DNA of 64,000 nt, from the NCBI GenBank assembly GCA_014240065.1, contig JAAZXR010000018.1, positions 1-64,000 of the forward strand. The letters are read 5' to 3'. The notes beneath the pieces are model-generated. The model was not told the origin of the DNA, did no database searches, and saw only the letters and a program-made list of their open reading frames with translations. This DNA comes from Myxococcales bacterium. Its GTDB lineage: Bacteria > Myxococcota_A > Polyangia > Nannocystales > Nannocystaceae. A program made the position numbers and the translations under genes. Shown piece by piece: positions 3,779-28,679 of the stretch. The number at the start of each line of letters is the position of its first letter. The first letter of the stretch is position 1.

Positions 3779-5214
3779 CGCCCTACGAAACGGTCTGTGG
3801 CGTTCACCAGCGCGCGGATGATCCCGGGCTCGAGGGCGGAATGCCCGGCGTCTTCAATGATCTGGAACTCCGCCTCTGGCCACGCGCGGGACAGCTCGTA
3901 GGCCGTTTGGAGCGGGCAGACGACGTCGTGCCGCCCCTGAACGATGACGCCCGGGATGTGCCGGATCGCGTCAATATTCCGCAGCAGCTGGTCGCGCGGC
4001 TCGAAGAAGGCGCCGTTCATGAAGTAGTGACATTCGATCCTCGCGAGCGCCGCCGCGAACAGGTCGTCGTCTTCGCTGATGGAGTCGCCAGGTGGAGCGC
4101 CGCGCGGGCCGCGGAGCGTGCTGGTGGTGAGCTCCCAGCCCGCCCATCGCCGCGCGGCCTCACGTTGGGTGTCTTCGTCGTCGGCGGTGAGCCGCCGGTG
4201 GTATGCGCGCAGCAGATCGTGTCGCTCGTCGTCTGGGATGTGAGCGACGAAGGGCGCGAACTGATCGGGGTAGAGCTGGCTCGCGCCCTCTTGGTAGAAC
4301 CAGTGGAGCTCTCGCGGTCGCGCCATGAAGATGCCGCGCAGCACGAGCTCTGTGACCCGTGAAGGGTGAGTCTGCGCGTAGGCGAGGGCGAGGGTGCTGC
4401 CCCATGATCCCCCGAAGACCATCCAGCGATCGACGCCGAGGTGGAGGCGGAGGCGCTCGATGTCCTCCACGAGATCCCAGGTCGTATTTGATTCGAGGCA
4501 TGCGTGCGGGGTGCTGCGCCCTGAGCCCCGCTGATCGACGAGCACGATCCTGTAGCGCGCGGGGTCGAAGAAACGGCGATGGTCGTCGGCGCACCCGCCG
4601 CCCGGACCTCCGTGCAAAAACACCACGGGCTTGCCGTTCGGATCACCGCATTCCTCGTAGTACAAGTCGTGGCCGTCGGTGACGGCGAGGCGCCCGGTGA
4701 CGTAGGGTTCCAGCGCCGGGTAGAGTCCGCGCGGTGGTTGAGTGGAGGGGGGGGGGGAGCGATCGAGCAGGGCCGGCGGCGCTTGCACAAGCTCGATGAG
4801 GACCCCGACGCCGGAGTTGGGCGCGTCATCGGAGCCCTTCGGGTGGACAAAGCAGACGTCGTGGCCAGCGGCACCCTTGCGGATCCCTCCGGGGGTGAAG
4901 CGGACCTGCCTCGCCTGCAGCCAGCGAACCGCGGCCTCGAGGGAGTCCACCCACAGCCCGATGTGGTTGAGCGCGGGCTGGTGCACCTTGGGGCGCTTGG
5001 TGGGGTCGAGCGGTTGCATGAGATCGATCTCAACGCAAAACGGCGGCTCCCCGAGCACGAGGATCGACTCGTCGACGTTCTCGGACTCGCTCGTGTATTC
5101 GCCGCGCTTCGCGACGCCAAAGAGCTCGACCCAAAGGTGTTCGAGCGCCGCGCGATCGAGCGCGCCAATGGCGACTTGCTGCACACCGAGGATGCGGAAG
5201 GGACGTGCTTCCAT
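3775..5214 (-). CDS. VOC (glyoxalase-like) domain fused to proline iminopeptidase
   Basis: A 479-residue two-domain protein. Residues 1 to about 150 match the vicinal-oxygen-chelate/glyoxalase fold of methylmalonyl-CoA epimerase type: an N-terminal [10 protein letters not shown] strand, a central [16 protein letters not shown] repeat and a terminal [10 protein letters not shown] strand. After a Pro-rich linker (around 156-165) a complete S33 peptidase follows, with [23 protein letters not shown] and GHSALEPG motifs, closely resembling the adjacent stand-alone peptidase. Both domains appear intact. The linker is encoded by a run of 11 C's (G on the + strand), so a single-base indel would separate or disrupt the two parts. 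No separate Met start is seen for the peptidase half. It lies 45 bases after miaE and overlaps the next peptidase gene by four bases. Confidence 0.8.
4747..4757. repeat. G11/C11 homopolymer at the VOC-peptidase junction
   Basis: Eleven consecutive G residues on the + strand (C on the coding strand) encode the SPPPS part of the linker between the two domains. Such mononucleotide tracts are prone to replication slippage and to sequencing error, and any change not divisible by three would truncate the fusion within the linker or put the peptidase out of frame. Confidence 0.85.
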
Positions 5215-19297: not shown

Positions 19298-20671
19298 ATG
19301 CACCAGACTCAAGACACAATTTCGGTTTTGGTCGTCGATGATGAGGCCGGCGCGCGTGAGCCGATGTGCGAGTTCCTCGCGGACGAGGGGTATGAGGTGC
19401 GGAGCGCCGCGGACGGCGCACAAGCGCTGGTGGAGGCGAGGCTCAAAGCACCGGATATCCTCTTGACCGATCTGCGCATGCCGACTGTCGACGGCCTCAC
19501 GCTGATCGAGACCATCTGCGGGGAGGAGGGCATGGACTGCGGGATCATCGTGATGACCGCGTTCGGCTCGGTGGAGACCGCGGTCGAGGCGCTGAAGCGC
19601 GGCGCCGACGACTATCTCGTCAAGCCGATCCACCTCGGACAGCTGCTCGTCGTGCTGGACCGGCTGTGCAGGCAGCGCCGCCTCCGCAAGGAGCTGCAGG
19701 AGGTTCGATCCCGCGGCGCCGCGACCGTTGAGGCTGATGGCGGCGGCGGCGGGGATCTGCCCCAGGTTTCACCGGCGCTCCGCGAGTCGATAGAGACGCT
19801 GGCTCCAATGCAGGCGAACGTGCTGGTCTATGGGGAGGTCGGAACTGGCAAGGTGCCAGTCGCGCGCGCGATTCATGCGGCGTCTGCCAGTTCGAAGGGG
19901 GCGAGAGTTCTTAACTGCGCCGTCCACGGCGAACGTACGGCCCACGAGTTGTTGTTTGGCGGCGCGGAAGGCGACGATGATGGGTGGTTGGCAGACGTCA
20001 GCACGACGTTGATCCTCGCAGACGTTGACCACCTAACGACTGCCGTCCAAGAGAAGCTTCATTTGACGCTGTCCGAGGCGGCAGCGGGAGCCGGGAGCCA
20101 CTGCGCGCGCGTCATCTCCACGACCGCCCTCGACATGCAAGAAGAGATGGACTCTGGTCGCTTCCTCCCTTCGCTCGGGCGACTCCTCTCGAGTGTTCGT
20201 ATCAGGGTGCCGACGCTGAGGGAGCGACACTCAGAACTCATTTCGATCATCCAGAGCGCCCTCGTCGACGCCGGGAGACGGTACCAAGCACCGGCGCCTC
20301 GGCTCAGTTCGCAGGCGCTCGAGCTGCTCGTCGGCTATGCGTGGCCAGGGAATCTTCGAGAGTTGCGCCAAGCCGTGGAGCGCGCGGTGCTCACGTGTGA
20401 AGGCCGAGATATTGAGGTGGCGCATTTTCCGGACGCGTTGCAGGCGGACTCTGCGGGTCTTCAACTTCCGGTGGTTCCGGGCGCGAGCCTGCGTGAGCTG
20501 GAGCGCTACGCGTTGCTTCAGACTCTTGAGCAGGTCGGCGGTAGCACGACGAAGGCGGCAAATATCCTCGGGATTTCTCCGCGGAAGATCCAGTATCGCC
20601 TCAACGAATATCGGGAGCAGGACCTGTCCGAACGCGGCGGCGCGGGGACGGAGTCCGGGGACGGCGGCTGA
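19298..20671 (+). CDS. NtrC-like response regulator with degenerate AAA+ domain
   Basis: A 457-residue REC-AAA-Fis protein. The receiver is complete (VVDDEAG, Asp58 in LLTDLRMPTVDG, TAFGS, VKPIH). The central domain is altered: Walker A survives as GEVGTGKV (residues 179-186), but the sigma-54-contacting GAFTGA loop, expected after LFG (219-221), is absent and replaced by GAEGDDDGW; Walker B is LILADVDH rather than LFLDEI-type. The WPGNLREL sensor-II region (349-356), the RIRVPTLRER segment and a C-terminal Fis-type helix-turn-helix (398-438) are kept. It should bind DNA but is unlikely to activate sigma-54 polymerase. ATG 19298 is the start that precedes the receiver. It converges with the REC-PAS-kinase gene 24 bases away. 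Confidence 0.9.
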   Translation: MHQTQDTISVLVVDDEAGAREPMCEFLADEGYEVRSAADGAQALVEARLKAPDILLTDLRMPTVDGLTLIETICGEEGMDCGIIVMTAFGSVETAVEALKRGADDYLVKPIHLGQLLVVLDRLCRQRRLRKELQEVRSRGAATVEADGGGGGDLPQVSPALRESIETLAPMQANVLVYGEVGTGKVPVARAIHAASASSKGARVLNCAVHGERTAHELLFGGAEGDDDGWLADVSTTLILADVDHLTTAVQEKLHLTLSEAAAGAGSHCARVISTTALDMQEEMDSGRFLPSLGRLLSSVRIRVPTLRERHSELISIIQSALVDAGRRYQAPAPRLSSQALELLVGYAWPGNLRELRQAVERAVLTCEGRDIEVAHFPDALQADSAGLQLPVVPGASLRELERYALLQTLEQVGGSTTKAANILGISPRKIQYRLNEYREQDLSERGGAGTESGDGG

Positions 20672-20695
20672 ACAGCCGAGTGAGCGGTCGCGGCG

Positions 20696-22240
20696 TCAGG
20701 GATCGAGGATAGTGCCGAGGGGGATGGTCGGGAAAGAGCCGGAGGGCAACCGCTTGGATTGAGGGAGCGGGGGCTCCGCGGGGAGCGTCACGTCGACGTG
20801 AAAACCTTGGTCGTTTCTGAGATCGATCTCGCCTCCGTGCAGCGAGATGATCGAGTGCGTGATCGCCATGCCGAGTCCGGTGCCACCATCCGCGGTGGTA
20901 TAGAACGGCTCGAACACCCGCGCGAGCTCCTCTTCTGGGATTCCCGGCCCGGTGTCGGAGATGACGATCCGCGCAGAGTTGCCATCGGCCTCCACGCACA
21001 TCCTCACGGCGCCCCCGCTCCCGGCCGCACGCAGGGCGTTATTGATGATGTTGAGGAAGACCTGCTTCAGCCGCTCGGGGTCGGCGGTGATGTACAGGGG
21101 CACCGTCGGTAGATCCAAAGAGAGCTGCGCATTGGCGGCGGCGGCGGCGGGCTCAACGAAGGCATTGAACTCGCGGAAGAACTCACACATTTCGACTCTG
21201 GAGGTCCGCAGCTGGGTCGGACGTGCGAAGTTAAGGAAGTCCTCCACCAGCCGGGTGAGGCGGCCGAGCTCGATCCGAACGGCTTCGATAGCGACGTTTG
21301 ATTTTTTGCGCATGGGCTGCGGCAAAGAGAGCTTGCTGATGCGGCGGGTCATGAGCTGGAGCTGAAGCTCCGCGGCGTTGAGGGGGTTTCGGATCTCATG
21401 GGCGAGCCCCGCCGCCAGGGTGCCGACCGCAGCGAGTTTCTCCGAGAGGCGCGTGCGCCGCTCAAGATTTGCCAGCTCTGTCACATCGAGGCCGGACGCG
21501 TAGATCTCCGTGGCTCCGTCTTCGCGCTGCAGCGGCGTCCATTGCCAACGGATTCGGTACTCTGGACCCGCGTCGCTGCCCGATCTGACGATGCGGGTGT
21601 CGAAGCCCACGGGGGTCCCTCGCAAGACGAGGGCCGAGGCGTTGTTCAACTCTTCATGTTCTCGCGGCGGGATAAAGTCGTTCAACGAGCGACCGATGAG
21701 CTGTCTCTCATCGAGTCCAAGGTGCTGCTCCGTCGCAGGATTCGCGCTCCTGATCACGCCATCGTCCGACAGCGTCAAGAGCATCACCTGCACAGTGCCG
21801 ACCAGCGTGCGCAGCTTCTCTTCTCGCTCGGCGAGTTGTCGCGCGAGGACGGCGGTCTGTTTCTTGGTGTGAACCAGATTGGAGGCGTGCTGAACAGTGG
21901 CGATGAGGCGGAGCGGATCGAAGGGCTTGACGACATAGTCATAGGCGCCAGCTTTGACGGCCTCGATCGCGTCCTCGAGGGTCGCGTCGCCGGTGATGAG
22001 GAGAATCTCAGGGGTGGGGCCGCTGATGGACCGCAGCTTGGGGAGCAGATCAAGTCCCGTGCCATCCGGGAGACGAATGTCGACCAGGGCGACGTCGAAG
22101 GGGGTGTGGGCCAGCTCAAGCCCTTCTCTCGCCGTCGCCGCGTGGACGACGATGGCGCCCTCGTCCGCCAGGATTTCTCCGATGTTCGCCGCGAGCTCAA
22201 CGTTGTCGTCGACGAGGAGGACGCGCGTCCCAGGTGTCAC
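20696..22240 (-). CDS. Receiver-PAS-histidine kinase hybrid
   Basis: A 514-residue soluble kinase: N-terminal receiver (VDDNVE, Asp54 in LVDIRLPDGTG, Lys in VVKPFDP), a short coiled linker (120-150), a PAS domain (about 150-255, GVIRSANPATEQHLGLDERQ region), HisKA with His282 in GLAHEIRNPLNA, and an HATPase (NIINNALRAAG, SDTGPGIPEE, GGTGLGMAI). It has no TM segment, so input is probably phosphoryl transfer to its receiver plus a PAS ligand. GTG 22240 overlaps the stop of the double-receiver gene (GTGA), so it is the last gene of a coupled run. It is convergent with the NtrC-like gene, which may be its output. Confidence 0.93.
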   Translation of the reverse strand: MTPGTRVLLVDDNVELAANIGEILADEGAIVVHAATAREGLELAHTPFDVALVDIRLPDGTGLDLLPKLRSISGPTPEILLITGDATLEDAIEAVKAGAYDYVVKPFDPLRLIATVQHASNLVHTKKQTAVLARQLAEREEKLRTLVGTVQVMLLTLSDDGVIRSANPATEQHLGLDERQLIGRSLNDFIPPREHEELNNASALVLRGTPVGFDTRIVRSGSDAGPEYRIRWQWTPLQREDGATEIYASGLDVTELANLERRTRLSEKLAAVGTLAAGLAHEIRNPLNAAELQLQLMTRRISKLSLPQPMRKKSNVAIEAVRIELGRLTRLVEDFLNFARPTQLRTSRVEMCEFFREFNAFVEPAAAAANAQLSLDLPTVPLYITADPERLKQVFLNIINNALRAAGSGGAVRMCVEADGNSARIVISDTGPGIPEEELARVFEPFYTTADGGTGLGMAITHSIISLHGGEIDLRNDQGFHVDVTLPAEPPLPQSKRLPSGSFPTIPLGTILDP

Positions 22241-22962
22241 CGCAGCACCTCGTCGAGCGCCCGCTTGAGCTCATTGGGACGAAATGGCTTGCTGATGATG
22301 GGGGGCGGTTCAAGTCCCTCAGGCAGCGCTTCGAGGGCTCCGTCTCGATTGCCGGTGATGTAGATCAACGGGATTTCTCCGAGGTCGGTGATCAGCGATT
22401 GATGCCGAGAGATCGTCGTCCCGTCCGGCAGGTTGACGTCGAGGATCGCCGCGTGAAATTGTACGTTGTGAGCGAGGTGCATGGCAGAGGCGAGGTCGGA
22501 GGCCTGCGTGACGTGGACCCCATCAAACCGCGAGAGGTAGTTCGACAAGAGGGTGCGGAGTTGGCGATCGTCCTCGACGATCAGAATCCTGGTCCTGGCC
22601 GCGACGAAGCGCGTCACCGTGGAGAGCAGCTGTATCGTCTGCACCGGCTTGATCAGCACGTCCACCGCGCCCCAGTCCTTGGCGGCCTTCAAGAGCTCGT
22701 CTTCGGCGTACGCGGTCATGACAACCGCCGGCAAATCGGGGTACAGCCGCCGCACCTCTCGCACGACGTCAGAGCCGTTCATCCCGGGCATCCTCATGTC
22801 CGTGAGGACGAGGTCGAAGTGCTCGGCGCTCAGGCACGCCAGGCCCTGATCCCCGGTGTGAGAGATGACGACCTCCACGTCGTCAACGTCCAGCTCGATA
22901 ATCTCTTGCAGATTCTCCGCCAGCTCGACGTTGTCTTCGATCAAGAGCACGCGAGACTTCAT
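22237..22962 (-). CDS. Double-receiver (REC-REC) protein
   Basis: A 241-residue protein with two complete receiver domains in tandem and no output domain. The first has LIEDNVE, Asp55 in LVLTDMRMPGMNG and Lys in VLIKPVQ; the second has IVEDDRQ, Asp174 in AAILDVNLPDG and Lys in ISKPFRP. Such proteins act as phosphate shuttles or sinks between kinases. ATG 22962 is chosen because GGAGG lies six bases upstream (CGGAGGACAC) and it overlaps the preceding kinase stop. It is flanked on both sides, with 4-base overlaps, by histidine kinases, supporting a shared phosphorelay. Confidence 0.94.
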   Translation of the reverse strand: MKSRVLLIEDNVELAENLQEIIELDVDDVEVVISHTGDQGLACLSAEHFDLVLTDMRMPGMNGSDVVREVRRLYPDLPAVVMTAYAEDELLKAAKDWGAVDVLIKPVQTIQLLSTVTRFVAARTRILIVEDDRQLRTLLSNYLSRFDGVHVTQASDLASAMHLAHNVQFHAAILDVNLPDGTTISRHQSLITDLGEIPLIYITGNRDGALEALPEGLEPPPIISKPFRPNELKRALDEVLR

Positions 22963-24194
22963 GTGTCCTCCGAGAGCTTGGTCGGCAACGTGAACGACAC
23001 GAGCGCCCCCCCCTCGGGAGGGTTCGTGGCGACGGCTTGCCCTCCGTGACGTGCGACGACGCTGCGGACCAGCGCGAGGCCGAGCCCTGTCCCCTTGGGC
23101 CTCGTGGTGACGAGCGGTTCGAAGGCGGAGGTCAGGAGGCCGGGAGGGAACCCCCCCCCGTTGTCTCGGACGCTGATGGAGATGCCGCTTGGTTCGCGGG
23201 TAGCCGTGAGCCAGATCTGTGGTTCGGTCGCATCGATCAGCGCGTACACCGAGTTTTGGACGAGGTTCATCATGCACTGCACGATGAGTCCGGGTTCCAC
23301 CTCGGCGGTCACGTTGCCAGGGGAGTCGACGTGCAGCGTCACCTCCTCAGGGAACTGGATCGCGTCGCAGGCTTGATCGAAGACCTCACGAATGGCCCGC
23401 CGCTCAAGTCGCAGCGGTCGATCCCGCGTCATCTCGAGGAGATCGGAGATGATTCGATTGCACAGCGTGACCTGCCCATCCATACGATCAAGGTGCTTTG
23501 TGGTGCGTGGGTCGTCGCCGGCTCTCCTCCGCACGAGGAACAGCGAGGACTGAATGACGCCGAGCGGATTTCGCAGGTCATGCCCCATGCTCGCCGCGAG
23601 CTGTCCGATGGTAGCGAGGCGCTCATTCCCTCTCGCCCTGGACTCCGCGCGGACTCGAATCCCAGACAGCACCACCGCCGTCTCAAGGGAGACCCATCGG
23701 TCGAGGTGTCGGATCCTCTGTAGCAGCAGGGCCTTCGTTGGCTCCTGCTCAATGAGGATACGGTGCATGACATGAGACAGGGAGGTCGCCGCCGCGAAGA
23801 CCTCTGTCTCTTGGATATCTTGCTCCACCGCGTGCATGACCGCGCGAGAGCGCTGGGTCCAATACTTTTGAGAGGCGGCGTTTTGAAGCCCACGCGTCAG
23901 CCATTTTTGGAACTCACCAACAAAATCGTCTTCGCTGAGTGAGAGCTTGACGAACACTGAGCTGGTCGCCGGATGCACGGCCAAGGTGTTGTAGATTTCC
24001 CTGCTGATATTTTCCGAGTGGGGCATCAGCGTCGTCGTGAGCGCCTCGATCTCGTGCGCCTCGTCCGGGGAGAACCCCATGGAAGCGATAAATTCATCGA
24101 GGACCTGATCCACAGGGCAAGTTTGGGGCGCGGCAAGACCGCTGACAAGGGGGTTTTTTGGGCGGCTCGAAACCCACACCCGCGCGACCGACAT
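22959..24194 (-). CDS. Histidine kinase with protoglobin-like sensor domain
   Basis: A 411-residue soluble kinase from ATG 24194 (GTG 24221 is possible). Residues about 25-150 are helical and match the protoglobin/globin-coupled-sensor pattern: SPDEAHEIEALTTTLMPHSE, IYNTLAVHPATSSVF, a WLTRGLQNA segment and RSRAVMHAVEQDI, in which His121 (counted from the chosen start) is the candidate proximal haem ligand. HisKA follows with His205 in SMGHDLRNPLG, then an HATPase with NLVQNSVYAL, RDNGGGFP and GTGLGLALV. Haem and gas (oxygen, NO or CO) sensing is inferred from the fold only. It begins 64 bases after the GST gene and overlaps the double-receiver gene. Confidence 0.82.
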   Translation of the reverse strand: MSVARVWVSSRPKNPLVSGLAAPQTCPVDQVLDEFIASMGFSPDEAHEIEALTTTLMPHSENISREIYNTLAVHPATSSVFVKLSLSEDDFVGEFQKWLTRGLQNAASQKYWTQRSRAVMHAVEQDIQETEVFAAATSLSHVMHRILIEQEPTKALLLQRIRHLDRWVSLETAVVLSGIRVRAESRARGNERLATIGQLAASMGHDLRNPLGVIQSSLFLVRRRAGDDPRTTKHLDRMDGQVTLCNRIISDLLEMTRDRPLRLERRAIREVFDQACDAIQFPEEVTLHVDSPGNVTAEVEPGLIVQCMMNLVQNSVYALIDATEPQIWLTATREPSGISISVRDNGGGFPPGLLTSAFEPLVTTRPKGTGLGLALVRSVVARHGGQAVATNPPEGGALVSFTLPTKLSEDT

Positions 24195-24257
24195 GCGCGA
24201 GCTGGCGCACCCGTGCTGCACAGCGGTTGAGGGCCTCTCAGGGTCCGTGCCAGAGGC

Positions 24258-24902
24258 TCACGGGTCGGTCAACGCGTGCTCACCGGCGGCTTCGAGACGC
24301 CATTTGGCCATCCCTTCGTGGCCGCGCATGGTGTGAGCGTACGCAGCGCAGAGCGCGTCGATGGGTACACCGTATCCGAGGAACCGCTCGATCACGGGAG
24401 CGAACATGCAATCCGCGATGGAGAATTGACCGAAGAGATAGGGGCCAAGGTGGGCGTTGCTCGCGAGGGCCGCCCGCCACAGCTCACAAATTCGGGTGAC
24501 TTCATGCCAGCACTCTGTGCTGATCTCTCGGGTCGTATTGGCGTCCAAATCCATCGGTAGTTCACGCCGAAGGTTCGGAAATCCGGCGTGCATCTCGGCC
24601 GCATAGGCGCGGGCGACGGCGCGCTGGAGAGGATCTGACGGCCACAGGGGCGCCGCCGGGATTGAACGCTCCGCCGCAAATTCGCAGATCGCCAGTGAGT
24701 CCCAGACGGTGTGCTCGCCGATGCGGAGCGCCGGGAGCCGCTGTGAGCCACCCAGCTCCGCCACGCTCGGGATGAAGCTCGGCGAGTCGAGCCAGATCAT
24801 CGTGCATGAGAAGGAGACGCCGCTCGCGCGGAGAGCCAGCCACGCGCGCAGGCTCCACGAGGAGTACCTGCGGTTTCCGATGAAGAGCTCGACGTCGGCC
24901 AC
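24258..24902 (-). CDS. Glutathione S-transferase family protein
   Basis: A 214-residue cytosolic GST-fold protein. The thioredoxin-like N-terminal half reads ELFIGNRRYSSWSLRAW (with the catalytic-site Ser in RYSSWS), QRLPALRIGEHTVWDSLAI (cis-Pro and the Asp-Ser glutathione-contact pair), and the helical C-terminal half contains FGQFSIADCMFAPV, the N-capping box of the family. Expected to conjugate or reduce using glutathione; the substrate is unknown. It is upstream of the globin-like kinase on the same strand with a short gap, so it may be part of the same transcript, which is unproven. Confidence 0.9.
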   Translation of the reverse strand: MADVELFIGNRRYSSWSLRAWLALRASGVSFSCTMIWLDSPSFIPSVAELGGSQRLPALRIGEHTVWDSLAICEFAAERSIPAAPLWPSDPLQRAVARAYAAEMHAGFPNLRRELPMDLDANTTREISTECWHEVTRICELWRAALASNAHLGPYLFGQFSIADCMFAPVIERFLGYGVPIDALCAAYAHTMRGHEGMAKWRLEAAGEHALTDP

Positions 24903-25039
24903 GCGCGCAGCCTACGTCATCGAGCGCTGCAGTGGCCCCCTCAAGGGCGCTGTGGGGGTGCCTCGTCGTGAGACGCCCGCTCGATCGTTCGCCAAATTTT
25001 GGTGTTCGGCCAAAGATGTGCACACTTGTTGACGTAGAC

Positions 25040-25186
25040 GTGAACTGGATGTCACACCGCCGCCGATTTGTACCCATGAAACGGGGGCGCCTGCTAGTTG
25101 TAAATGCTTGCAATTGTTACATTTTGCTCACATTGCTGAACAGTTTTTCCCCCTGACATGATGATTGCAAAACAACGGAGCTACCC
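25040..25186 (+). promoter_or_regulatory. AT-rich leader of a small ORF
   Basis: From about 25050 to 25180 the sequence is strikingly AT-rich for this genome, with TTGTAA, TTGCAATTG and ATTGCAAAAC elements, and it ends in a GGAG Shine-Dalgarno at 25177-25180. It is the most likely promoter/regulatory region between the GST gene (leftward) and the 56-residue ORF (rightward). I could not identify a confident -35/-10 pair. Confidence 0.5.
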
Positions 25187-25357
25187 ATGGAACACGCGAC
25201 ACAAGCAAGGTATCTAGTGCCGATTTTGAGCTTCAACGACGGCGAACACGAGCTCGTCACGGCCTTCGCCCGAGCGGCGAAGCTCTTTCGAGTTCGAGGC
25301 ATGGACCCATCGGAGCCGGCGCGCCGCGCGAGCAACGATGTTGCGAAGCGAAAATGA
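25187..25357 (+). CDS. Small 56-residue ORF of unknown function
   Basis: ATG 25187 follows a GGAG element at 25177-25180 with six bases spacing and opens a 56-codon frame ending at TGA 25355. The protein is basic at its end (RRASNDVAKRK) and mixed elsewhere (YLVPILSFNDGEHELV), without a signal peptide or TM helix. It stands directly behind the AT-rich leader and ahead of the cytochrome gene, whose start is about 100 bases after this stop. The strong ribosome-binding site and promoter-like leader argue for real translation. No family recognised. Confidence 0.55.
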   Translation: MEHATQARYLVPILSFNDGEHELVTAFARAAKLFRVRGMDPSEPARRASNDVAKRK

Positions 25358-25460
25358 GGGCGCGTTGGCGCCGCCGATGCGGGATTCGAATTCTCGGCGC
25401 CGCGGCCGCTTGCGCGCGGCGCTGGCGAAGTGGCGTCGTCGCGTGCAAACTCCCGTCGCG

Positions 25461-25859
25461 ATGAAGGGACTTCAAAACAAACGTCGGGTGGTGGTGTTGG
25501 CGCTCGCGGCTACGGTGTTCGCAGGCTGCGGCAAGATGGGCGCCTCTGCGGAGGGGACCGAGGCCGCTGAGGCCGGAGCGAAGGATGAGGTGCAGAAGAT
25601 CTGGGACACGCGGTGCGCGAACTGCCACGGCGACGAGGGGCTCGGCGATGGACCGGGCGCTGTCGCCCTCGATCCAAAGCCGCGCTCATTCGCGGATCGA
25701 AAGTGGCAAGCGACGATCACGGATGACAAAATCCGAACCGTCATCGTGGAGGGTGGCTACGCGGTCGGGCTGAGTCAGTCGATGACGGCGAACCCGGATC
25801 TTCGCTCGCGTCCGGAGGTCGTCGAGGGGCTCGTTAAGAAGGTCCGAGGCTTTCGCTAG
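25461..25859 (+). CDS. c-type cytochrome lipoprotein
   Basis: A 132-residue electron-transfer protein. ATG 25461 gives a signal with lipobox (ATVFAGC, Cys23), so it is anchored in an envelope membrane. A single haem site CANCH occupies residues 52-56, followed by GDEGLGDGPGAVA, DPKPRSFAD and, near the end, SQSMTANPDL with a candidate axial Met, the standard class I order. The partner is unknown; the neighbouring P450 operon converges on it (20 bases between stops) and runs on the other strand. Confidence 0.88.
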   Translation: MKGLQNKRRVVVLALAATVFAGCGKMGASAEGTEAAEAGAKDEVQKIWDTRCANCHGDEGLGDGPGAVALDPKPRSFADRKWQATITDDKIRTVIVEGGYAVGLSQSMTANPDLRSRPEVVEGLVKKVRGFR

Positions 25860-25879
25860 CGTGAGCGTGAGCGTCGGTC

Positions 25880-27274
25880 TCACCAGGCTGAGACCCGAAT
25901 GTTGATGGGGGCGGTCGGACGCAGGGTGATACCAGCGAGCAACGGCACCGGAGCGTCGTCGAGGGTCTGAACCGCGACGCGGCGACAGAGTCCCGCGAGT
26001 GACAAGACCCCCTCGACCATGGCGAAGTGCTGACCAATGCAGATGCGCGCCCCTCCTCCGAAGGGGAAGTAGCTCATCTTGGGGCGGCTCTTGCTCCGTG
26101 AGTCGTCACTCCAGCGCTCGGGATCGAACGAGCGCGGTGAGTCAAACCATCGAGGGTCGCGGTGAACAAGCCACTGGGGGAGCAGCAGCTGATCCCCCCT
26201 GTTCATCGTCCAGTCGCGCAGTTTAAAGGGGGAGACGACCTCGCGGCCGATGGCCCAGGCAGGAGGATACAGCCGCATGGTCTCGAGCAGCACCTGCCGC
26301 GCGAGGCTAAGCTGAGGCAGGTGCGTACGGCGCAGCGGGCCCTCCTTGTTCGCACGCAGCGCCTCATCGCGGAGCGCGGCGCCCAGCGCAGGACGGAGCC
26401 CGATCTCGCGGAGGGCGAAGGTGAGCGCGAGCGCGGTGGTCTCGTGCCCCGCGAGAAACAAGGTCGTGAGTTCATCGCGCAGCTGCACGCTGTCGAAGCG
26501 GTTGCCGACCTCATCGGTCGCGTGGCACAGGCGGTCGAGGAGATGCTGCGCGCCGCGTGGGGAGCTGCGGTAGTTCGCGATGGTTTGCTCGATAATCGCC
26601 CTCATCTCCTCACGGACGACGAGCATCGCTCTCCCCTCCGGGGTCGGCGCGTCGATCGGAAGCGCGGTCCGCCATCCGGTCCGACGTCTGGTGAAGGCCG
26701 CGGTGAAGTCGTCCGCGAGCTGGCCTATCCGAGCCGCGTCGGCGGACGCCGCCCGACCGAAGAGCGCGTTGACGACGATTTCGAGCGCGAGCTTGGTCAT
26801 CGCTTGATGCAGATCTACCGGCGCCGTCGCAGCCGCGAGCAGGGTGTTGAGGGTCGTCTCGGTCGCCTCGGCGATGACCTCGTCGTAGTCGAGCACCTTC
26901 GCCTTGGCGAAGTAGGGAGCGGAGATTCGTCGGTGGCGGCGCCACGCGGGACCGTGCGAGGTGAGCAGCCCATTCCCAAGAAGGATCGACAGGTCGCGGA
27001 GCATCGAGTCCTTGCAGGTGCGGGTGTGTTCGCGGACGAGCAGGTGTTCAATATCGCTCGGATGACGGAAGATCCACATGGAGAGCGGACCGAGGCGCGT
27101 CCACACCACATCCTCGTAGCTGGCCGCGATCTCATCGAGGAAGCGTAGCGTGTCGCCGGTGGTGTGCAGCGGGGACAGTCCCCGCAGCAGCAGGTTGGGG
27201 CCGGGCGGACGCCGCGTCGCGCCAAAAATCCCCCGACGGGGTTTGGGGTCGGAGGGAGGCGGCGGCGCGCTCAT
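25880..27274 (-). CDS. Cytochrome P450
   Basis: A 464-residue soluble P450 monooxygenase. Recognisable: the I-helix oxygen-activation motif AGHETTA, the K-helix ETMRLYPPAW (ExxR), the PERF-like FDPERW segment, and the haem-binding loop FGGGARICIG with Cys412. No N-terminal membrane anchor. Sequence style (HTRTCKDSM, ISAPYF) resembles the CYP102/CYP4-like fatty-acid or sterol clades, but I do not assign a substrate. ATG 27274 overlaps the TGA of the HTTM gene (ATGA), so it is the last gene of a three-gene coupled operon. No ferredoxin or reductase is adjacent. Confidence 0.95.
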   Translation of the reverse strand: MSAPPPPSDPKPRRGIFGATRRPPGPNLLLRGLSPLHTTGDTLRFLDEIAASYEDVVWTRLGPLSMWIFRHPSDIEHLLVREHTRTCKDSMLRDLSILLGNGLLTSHGPAWRRHRRISAPYFAKAKVLDYDEVIAEATETTLNTLLAAATAPVDLHQAMTKLALEIVVNALFGRAASADAARIGQLADDFTAAFTRRRTGWRTALPIDAPTPEGRAMLVVREEMRAIIEQTIANYRSSPRGAQHLLDRLCHATDEVGNRFDSVQLRDELTTLFLAGHETTALALTFALREIGLRPALGAALRDEALRANKEGPLRRTHLPQLSLARQVLLETMRLYPPAWAIGREVVSPFKLRDWTMNRGDQLLLPQWLVHRDPRWFDSPRSFDPERWSDDSRSKSRPKMSYFPFGGGARICIGQHFAMVEGVLSLAGLCRRVAVQTLDDAPVPLLAGITLRPTAPINIRVSAW

Positions 27275-28116
27275 CTCGAGGCCTCGTCCGCGCGGTCATC
27301 CGCGCGCCTCGGCCATATCCACGCCGCGGGGACAAAGGCGAGGTAGAGCGCGACCATCTGCGCGCTGAAGTAGATGAGCTTGTACATCGTCACAGCGATG
27401 ATGATGTGGAACAGCAACCCGAAGATCAGGGTGGGCGCGCGCAGCCGTCGAATCGTGAACAACACCGGCGCGGTCACCTCGAAGCCGAGCGCGGCGTGCT
27501 GCATGAGCGTCCACACCTCGGGTGGGAAGGTCCGGATAGACCACGCCGCCGCGTTGGTCATGTAGACGCCTTGGACCTGCGTCCACAGGACGTCCGCGTG
27601 GCGGAGCCAGTCGCCGTGGAGCATTTTGCACATGCCCGACGCAGCGTAATGGGTGAGCAAGAGGACCTGCAGCATGCGCAGCGGCCACCCCGGCATGGTC
27701 CCCGTCGCGCGCTGAGGCGCGATCGCGAGGATAAACAGGGTGATCACATAGAGGCGGTTGATGGTGAAGGCGGAGATAGGATCGGCGGCGGTGACGTAGA
27801 CGACGCCGGCCCACACGATCCAGCTCGACCACGGACGCAGTCGACCGCTGAGCCACGCGATGGCCACCGCGAGGTAGGTGAGGCCGAGGGGCGCGGCCAT
27901 CGCTCGCGGCAACAAGGGGAGGCGAGGCGCGTTGCGGTGATCGGCCTCCGGCGACGGGTGGAAGCCGCCGGCGGTGAGCCATTCGTCGATGTGGAGTCCC
28001 CACGAGATGAAGTACGCGATGAGCACGATCCCGAGACCGCGGCGCACAAGCTCGACGCGCCTCGCGTCCACGGGCGCGAGCCAAAACCGCCACCACGCGC
28101 GCTGGATCTGGTTCAC
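27271..28116 (-). CDS. HTTM-like integral membrane protein
   Basis: A 281-residue polytopic protein with about six to seven hydrophobic segments. The overall pattern (GLHIDEWLTAGGFHP near the start, MCKMLHGDWLRHADVLW, and a repeated helix array ending FVPAAWIW) resembles the HTTM / vitamin-K-dependent gamma-carboxylase-like superfamily, but the catalytic lysine of true carboxylases cannot be confirmed by eye. GTG 28116 overlaps the upstream stop (GTGA) and the stop overlaps the P450 start. The conserved coupling to a P450 suggests a shared membrane-associated oxidative pathway, which is inference. Confidence 0.75.
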   Translation of the reverse strand: MNQIQRAWWRFWLAPVDARRVELVRRGLGIVLIAYFISWGLHIDEWLTAGGFHPSPEADHRNAPRLPLLPRAMAAPLGLTYLAVAIAWLSGRLRPWSSWIVWAGVVYVTAADPISAFTINRLYVITLFILAIAPQRATGTMPGWPLRMLQVLLLTHYAASGMCKMLHGDWLRHADVLWTQVQGVYMTNAAAWSIRTFPPEVWTLMQHAALGFEVTAPVLFTIRRLRAPTLIFGLLFHIIIAVTMYKLIYFSAQMVALYLAFVPAAWIWPRRADDRADEASR

Positions 28117-28679
28117 TCGACGAGCTCCTCGCGGTCGTACTCGGCGATCACGCGACGCCGGCGAGGGGAGAGGCGTCTCCACGCCGGCGGGTTCCACCGC
28201 CCGGCGGGGGGCTCTTCGACAGAAGAACGAGTCCAGCCTTGCGCGATACGGACGCGGGAGGGGAGGGGCTGTCCCGGCTCAAGCTCCGCGAAGCGTGACA
28301 GCATCCACCGCGCCATCTCCCGGGTCCCAGGGCCCTCTCGCCGCCGCCAACTCACGAGGTACCGGTGCAGGCGCGAGCGATAGCCGAAGGGCCGCATGCC
28401 CGCCAACGAAGAGGTCTCCAGCGTGTCCCATCGCTGGCTGCCTTCGCGTTGGACTTGGAAGTAAAAGAACACCCACCCGTCCGGCTTGGTGCTGAACAGG
28501 CAGGAGATATTCTGCACGTCGGCGACGGTGCGAGGCAGGCCGCGCATGAGCGGTTGATTCTCCACTCCCGCATAGGCCACCGGGACCGCGATGAGCGCGA
28601 CAAACCCCCACACCGCGACGCGTTGATGCCAGCGCGGAGTAATGGGGGCGCCCGGCGCGTCCGTTCGGGGATCCTCCAT
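28113..28679 (-). CDS. Single-TM protein of unknown function
   Basis: A 188-residue protein with one hydrophobic segment near residues 22-40 (VAVWGFVALIAVPVAYAG) and a soluble, Trp/Arg-rich remainder (WVFFYFQVQREGSQRWDTLE, MARWMLSRFAELEPGQP). This resembles small partner proteins that accompany HTTM-family membrane proteins, but I cannot name a family. ATG 28679 starts it; the stop overlaps the HTTM gene, so the three genes downstream are probably one transcript. A promoter would lie in 28680-28742. Confidence 0.65.
   Translation of the reverse strand: MEDPRTDAPGAPITPRWHQRVAVWGFVALIAVPVAYAGVENQPLMRGLPRTVADVQNISCLFSTKPDGWVFFYFQVQREGSQRWDTLETSSLAGMRPFGYRSRLHRYLVSWRRREGPGTREMARWMLSRFAELEPGQPLPSRVRIAQGWTRSSVEEPPAGRWNPPAWRRLSPRRRRVIAEYDREELVE

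Follow-up and report, generated by a model that had tools for sequence, protein, structure and literature searches.

The nmp locus and its gene content

Within the stretch of 64,000 nucleotides of Myxococcales DNA analysed here (the window), positions 19298-24194 hold three minus-strand genes, nmpU, nmpT and nmpS, and a convergent plus-strand gene, nmpR. The nmpU homologue (22959-24194 or 24221, minus strand), assigned by Pfam and homology, encodes a globin-domain histidine kinase; an ATG lies at 24194, and the reading frame stays open as far as a GTG at 24221. The nmpT homologue (22237-22962, minus strand) encodes two receiver domains only and is a putative phospho-sink, the nmpS homologue (20696-22240, minus strand) encodes a REC-PAS-HisKA-HATPase kinase, and the nmpR homologue (19298-20671, plus strand) encodes a receiver, a degenerate AAA+ domain and a Fis-type helix-turn-helix (HTH). 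Overlaps of 4 bases each join S with T (22237-22240) and T with U (22959-22962), and the convergent R and S lie 24 bp apart. All four frames were intact, and the GC contents of the four genes at the three codon positions (65-71, 36-47 and 76-83%) were those of coding sequence throughout. Upstream of nmpU, the minus-strand interval 24261-28197 holds genes for a glutathione S-transferase (GST) and a cytochrome P450 and one gene without a Pfam match, the stop codon of the GST gene lying just upstream of nmpU.

In a Pfam scan, the main domains of all four proteins scored above the curated cut-offs: Protoglobin (32.7 bits, cut-off 25), HisKA and HATPase_c in NmpU, two Response_reg domains in NmpT, Response_reg, PAS_4, HisKA and HATPase_c in NmpS, and Response_reg, Sigma54_activat (weak, 52.8 bits) and HTH_8 in NmpR. 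None of the four proteins gave a Pfam match to an Hpt domain. Reading of the sequences showed that each of the four receivers keeps its acidic pair, Asp, Thr and Lys, and each of the two kinases its H, N, G1 and G2 boxes. These results bear out the initial annotation of this DNA, which had described the domain content, the four-base overlaps with a converging NtrC-like gene, and four receiver aspartates with two kinase histidines.

That annotation also regarded the combination as undescribed, but it is already known as the NmpRSTU oxygen-signalling system of Myxococcus xanthus, which has been studied genetically and biochemically (PMC6211767, PMC11841059), and the puzzle it raised has a published answer there. 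In M. xanthus, NmpU is a protoglobin kinase homologous to the O2-sensor kinase AfGcHK, NmpT consists of two receivers and is a putative phospho-sink, NmpS is a REC-kinase, and NmpR is an NtrC-like regulator that works with sigma-54 at genes likely for oxygen use. NmpU transfers phosphate to NmpT-REC1 and to the receiver of NmpS, by which it is proposed to keep NmpS off, and NmpS phosphorylates NmpR only (PMC6211767, PMC11841059). The M. xanthus genes (MXAN_4240, 4244-4246; L139) encode the same four proteins in the order U-T-S with R converging downstream. As in M. xanthus, the window has a Protoglobin-HisKA-HATPase kinase beside an adjacent NmpT (REC-REC) and NmpS (REC-kinase), with the NtrC-like NmpR close by. 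The domain plan differs only in NmpS, where Pfam detected no PAS domain in M. xanthus or in Myxococcus sp. (L138); a PAS was also present in three other NmpS proteins tested (L055, L057, L150).

The specificity helices match as well. By inspection, helix 1 is nearly identical in NmpT-REC1 (DNVELAENLQEI) and the NmpS receiver (DNVELAANIGEI) and unlike that of NmpT-REC2 and NmpR, and the specificity residues common to the first two are different in NmpR; the same likeness has been published for M. xanthus in the NmpRSTU papers. The nmp gene set with mostly the same layout, that is U-T-S with R nearby and usually convergent, was found across Myxococcota, the M. xanthus AM003 locus (L139) among them. 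Because this linkage recurs in dozens of Myxococcota loci, it is not due to chance. As judged from sequence, the window locus is the nmpUTS operon with convergent nmpR of a Nannocystaceae-type myxobacterium, a known system that is here in variant form.

Loss of the GAFTGA motif in NmpR and its spread

Alignment of the window NmpR showed a kept Walker A motif (GEVGTGKV; 19832-19855, plus strand), a loop L1 site (19952-19993, plus strand) that reads LLFGGAEGDDDGWL and is missing GAFTGA, and a Walker B motif (20003-20029, plus strand) changed from GTLFLDEV to TTLILADV, its Asp-Glu being replaced by Ala-Asp. The arginine-finger stretch 3' of Walker B is likewise lost (FREDLYYRL to FLPSLGRLL). The Fis-type HTH (GSTTKAANILGISPRKIQYRL; 20486-20611, plus strand) is conserved by Pfam and alignment. 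Thus, among the hallmarks of a sigma-54 enhancer-binding protein, Walker A and the Fis-type HTH are present, and GAFTGA, the Walker B Asp and the arginine fingers are gone. A protein with these changes is predicted to be unable to drive sigma-54 RNA polymerase, as the initial annotation had proposed in calling it uncoupled from sigma-54, whereas M. xanthus NmpR carries GSFTGA and depends on a sigma-54 site. Loss of RpoN was ruled out as the cause of the missing GAFTGA, since the window genome encodes RpoN; across the family, 26 of 29 genomes have it. Several other regulators of the window genome carry GAFTGA-type loops. A second NmpR-like regulator of the same genome (G000 contig C155:33228-34565, L085), 37% identical to the window NmpR, is likewise without GAFTGA, and its Walker A is changed.

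The NmpR rows formed one clade in the tree (100/99), apart from other bacterial enhancer-binding proteins (bEBPs) of the genome. The window NmpR, on a long branch, grouped with GAFTGA-less NmpR proteins of its own family, with support of 98/97 in the first tree and 99/97 in a rebuilt tree from which the other long branches, including L067, were left out. Its pairing in the first tree with the long-branch L067, from another family, was gone on rebuilding without L067, where it stood with G095, G131, G194, G201 and four others, all GAFTGA-less. Within the family, GAFTGA-less NmpR was found in G095, G131, G195, G198, G196, G199, G191, G193, G204 and G197, in the last two of which it is one of two NmpR copies. 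In the Plesiocystis group the loop is GAFAGA, and in G190 it is GAFPGA. Going by these trees and alignments, GAFTGA-less NmpR is a lineage feature of the window's family (Plesiocystis/Nannocystis group). The L067 locus (G103, another family of the class) has the nmpUTS/nmpR arrangement and an NmpR without GAFTGA and with changed Walker motifs; this loss is apparently independent of that in the window's family.

We also searched for NmpR-type operators. Of the 11 loci with a GAFTGA-less NmpR, 8 had such a site no more than 120 bp from nmpR, against a background of 3.6%, and in each of them it was a single site. A single operator also occurs in some relatives whose NmpR bears GAFTGA, and the uncoupled form therefore does not have this layout to itself. 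Among the four genomes searched, the sole exact match to GCGCAANNTTTGCGC was a site upstream of nmpU in G131. No NmpR operator was found at the window's own nmpR; the only site preceding its nmpU has one mismatch and falls within the GST gene upstream. At neither gene of the window did we find the pair of GCGCA-N5-TGCGC operators plus sigma-54 site, and a genome-wide motif search of the window genome gave no excess of operators, the hits being mostly repeats or their counts no higher than in the control. The arrangement of paired operators plus sigma-54 site is more a trait of the regulon in M. xanthus than of the set of proteins.

NtrC proteins without GAFTGA are known from Rhodobacter capsulatus and Caulobacter, as is VspR of V. 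cholerae; like the window NmpR, they have lost the L1 motif and kept DNA binding and the phospho-Asp. They are reported to be active at sigma-70 promoters, and R. capsulatus NtrC needs ATP binding but not hydrolysis (PMC10274813). They belong to another subfamily with another signal, however, and Caulobacter NtrC requires the Walker B motif that is changed in the window NmpR.

The globin sensor of NmpU

The window NmpU was 34-37% identical to its closest NmpU homologues over nearly its full length. A second genome of the same genus, 54% complete, gave no match. Its HisKA and HATPase_c domains (22980-23606, minus strand), found by Pfam, have intact HDLRN, N, G1 and G2 motifs. The globin sensor domain (23631-24104, minus strand) has a predicted globin fold (AF2 pLDDT 91.9, pTM 0.85), and the best PDB match of the model was the AfGcHK globin 5ohf (TMq 0.84, rmsd 1.7), in line with the protoglobin-like N-terminus that had been proposed for this kinase. 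AfGcHK of Anaeromyxobacter sp. Fw109-5 is likewise a globin-coupled histidine kinase with a double-receiver response regulator; it is, however, a haem O2 sensor, and in the window globin Ala takes the place of the ligand.

This Ala, encoded by GCG at 23829-23831 (minus strand), aligned with H96 of M. xanthus NmpU and with the proximal His of the AfGcHK globin. The fold is kept in the prediction, and the haem ligand of globin-coupled sensors is lost. In a MAFFT alignment of 76 sequences, the proximal His was present in 71 of the 75 others. When the window and the other rows lacking the His were left out of the profile, alignment to it again placed the Ala at the ligand position, and the phmmer alignment of the window NmpU to 5ohe was ungapped there. 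Frameshift or misalignment as the cause of the missing His was rejected, since three alignments agree without gaps and the anchors hold on both sides. The near-invariant residues I, G, Q and Y around the ligand are also changed, and most pocket-motif residues differ from those of the family.

One residue before the ligand position, out of register, the window NmpU does have a His. That haem is ligated by this His or some other residue following a slight local shift, leaving a working oxygen sensor with M. xanthus-like input, would fit the Protoglobin match above its cut-off, the confident fold prediction, the retained conserved Tyr and invariant Trp and the place of this His in the same helix, but we regard it as unlikely, because the flanking anchors (YW..R before, F.A after) fix the register gap-free in three alignments, the adjoining IG..H and LPQ.YM residues are altered too, and Ala at this position means no haem in M. 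xanthus NmpU. There, the wild-type protein keeps the His and binds haem; the H96A variant bound no haem, lost most of its kinase activity and autophosphorylated far more slowly. The window globin is very probably haem-free, and the gas gating through haem suggested by the initial annotation is unlikely in this copy. A precedent is the stressosome protein RsbR, in which a haem-free globin takes part in signalling (PMC6614362), as we propose for the window NmpU, although RsbR is a STAS protein of the stressosome and NmpU a histidine kinase.

The proximal His is also absent from NmpU of four other family genomes, G199 and G191, where a recognisable globin is retained, and G204 and G197, where none is recognisable; His-less or globin-less NmpU occurs in two further genera. 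All five of these genomes, the window's included, also have GAFTGA-less NmpR; a linked loss of His and GAFTGA was not significant within the family (Fisher p 0.23, kinship being ignored). In G204 and G197, the globin-less NmpU-like kinases (L120, L121) adjoin a GAFTGA-less NmpR and an NmpS, and a GAFTGA-bearing NmpR is present elsewhere in these genomes. The window genome has a second protoglobin (G000 contig C132:60926-61354, L001) that keeps the proximal His; read by eye, this protein comprises the globin, HAMP-like and GAF-like stretches and a HisKA.

A probable M. xanthus-like phosphotransfer core with altered ends

Taking these results together, we consider it likely that the locus is an nmp system with an M. 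xanthus-like core and altered input and output. We infer its wiring from homology and from the conserved specificity helices. As in M. xanthus, NmpU would pass phosphate to NmpT-REC1 and to the NmpS receiver, the phosphorylated receiver would hold NmpS off, and NmpS, once released, would phosphorylate NmpR, although the M. xanthus wiring may not transfer to this species. Because the globin is very probably haem-free, NmpU would sense something other than O2 directly, or stay in one state. At the other end, NmpR probably relies on its Fis-type HTH for DNA binding that depends on phosphorylation, and it probably acts as activator or repressor at sigma-70-type promoters. It probably binds ATP without hydrolysing it, which its kept Walker A and changed Walker B would fit, as in R. 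capsulatus NtrC (PMC10274813).

With the haem His lost in NmpU and the sigma-54 loop lost in NmpR, the pathway appears to have been rewired at either end. The same losses could belong to a decaying locus, where relaxed selection on both oxygen sensing and the sigma-54 output would leave the genes heading to loss. This is the main rival, and it would suit the degenerate state of both globin and AAA+ domain, the long NmpR branch, the lack of a detected operator at the window nmpR and the absence of a strong NmpU match from 11 of the 29 family genomes. We nevertheless give it only a small chance, as the four frames are intact with their 4-base overlaps kept, codon-position GC is that of coding sequence, and the GAFTGA loss is common to a clade of genera that retain the nmp genes. 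All phospho-acceptor and kinase motifs and the HTH are intact, and that the kinases, the receivers and the DNA-binding domain have kept their residues speaks for a re-functionalised rather than a decaying locus. A linear, gas-gated multistep relay through all four receivers, which the initial annotation read from the four receivers and two kinases encoded together, is highly improbable, since M. xanthus NmpS phosphorylates neither its own receiver nor either NmpT receiver, M. xanthus NmpU does not phosphorylate NmpR, and no Hpt match was found; by homology, the cascade would be branched and inhibitory, with NmpS alone acting on NmpR.

For the rebuilt cascade that we favour over decay, a fuller account can be offered only tentatively: in this Nannocystaceae-type lineage, the Nmp cascade may have been rebuilt at both ends around a kept phosphotransfer core, with a haem-free globin gating the top kinase for a different signal and NmpR moved from a sigma-54 enhancer role to direct sigma-70-type control, mostly at single operators. 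In the literature searched, we found no description of an Nmp variant with an altered NmpU haem ligand and a GAFTGA-less NmpR. The window NmpU is a natural counterpart of the published H96A experiment, in which the globin is kept and the haem ligand is not, and it sits in a pathway whose regulator has lost its sigma-54 contact. Relatives show each state, namely haem ligand with GAFTGA, haem ligand without GAFTGA, and neither, and comparing these states could teach how the input and output of a signalling cascade come to change around a middle that is kept.
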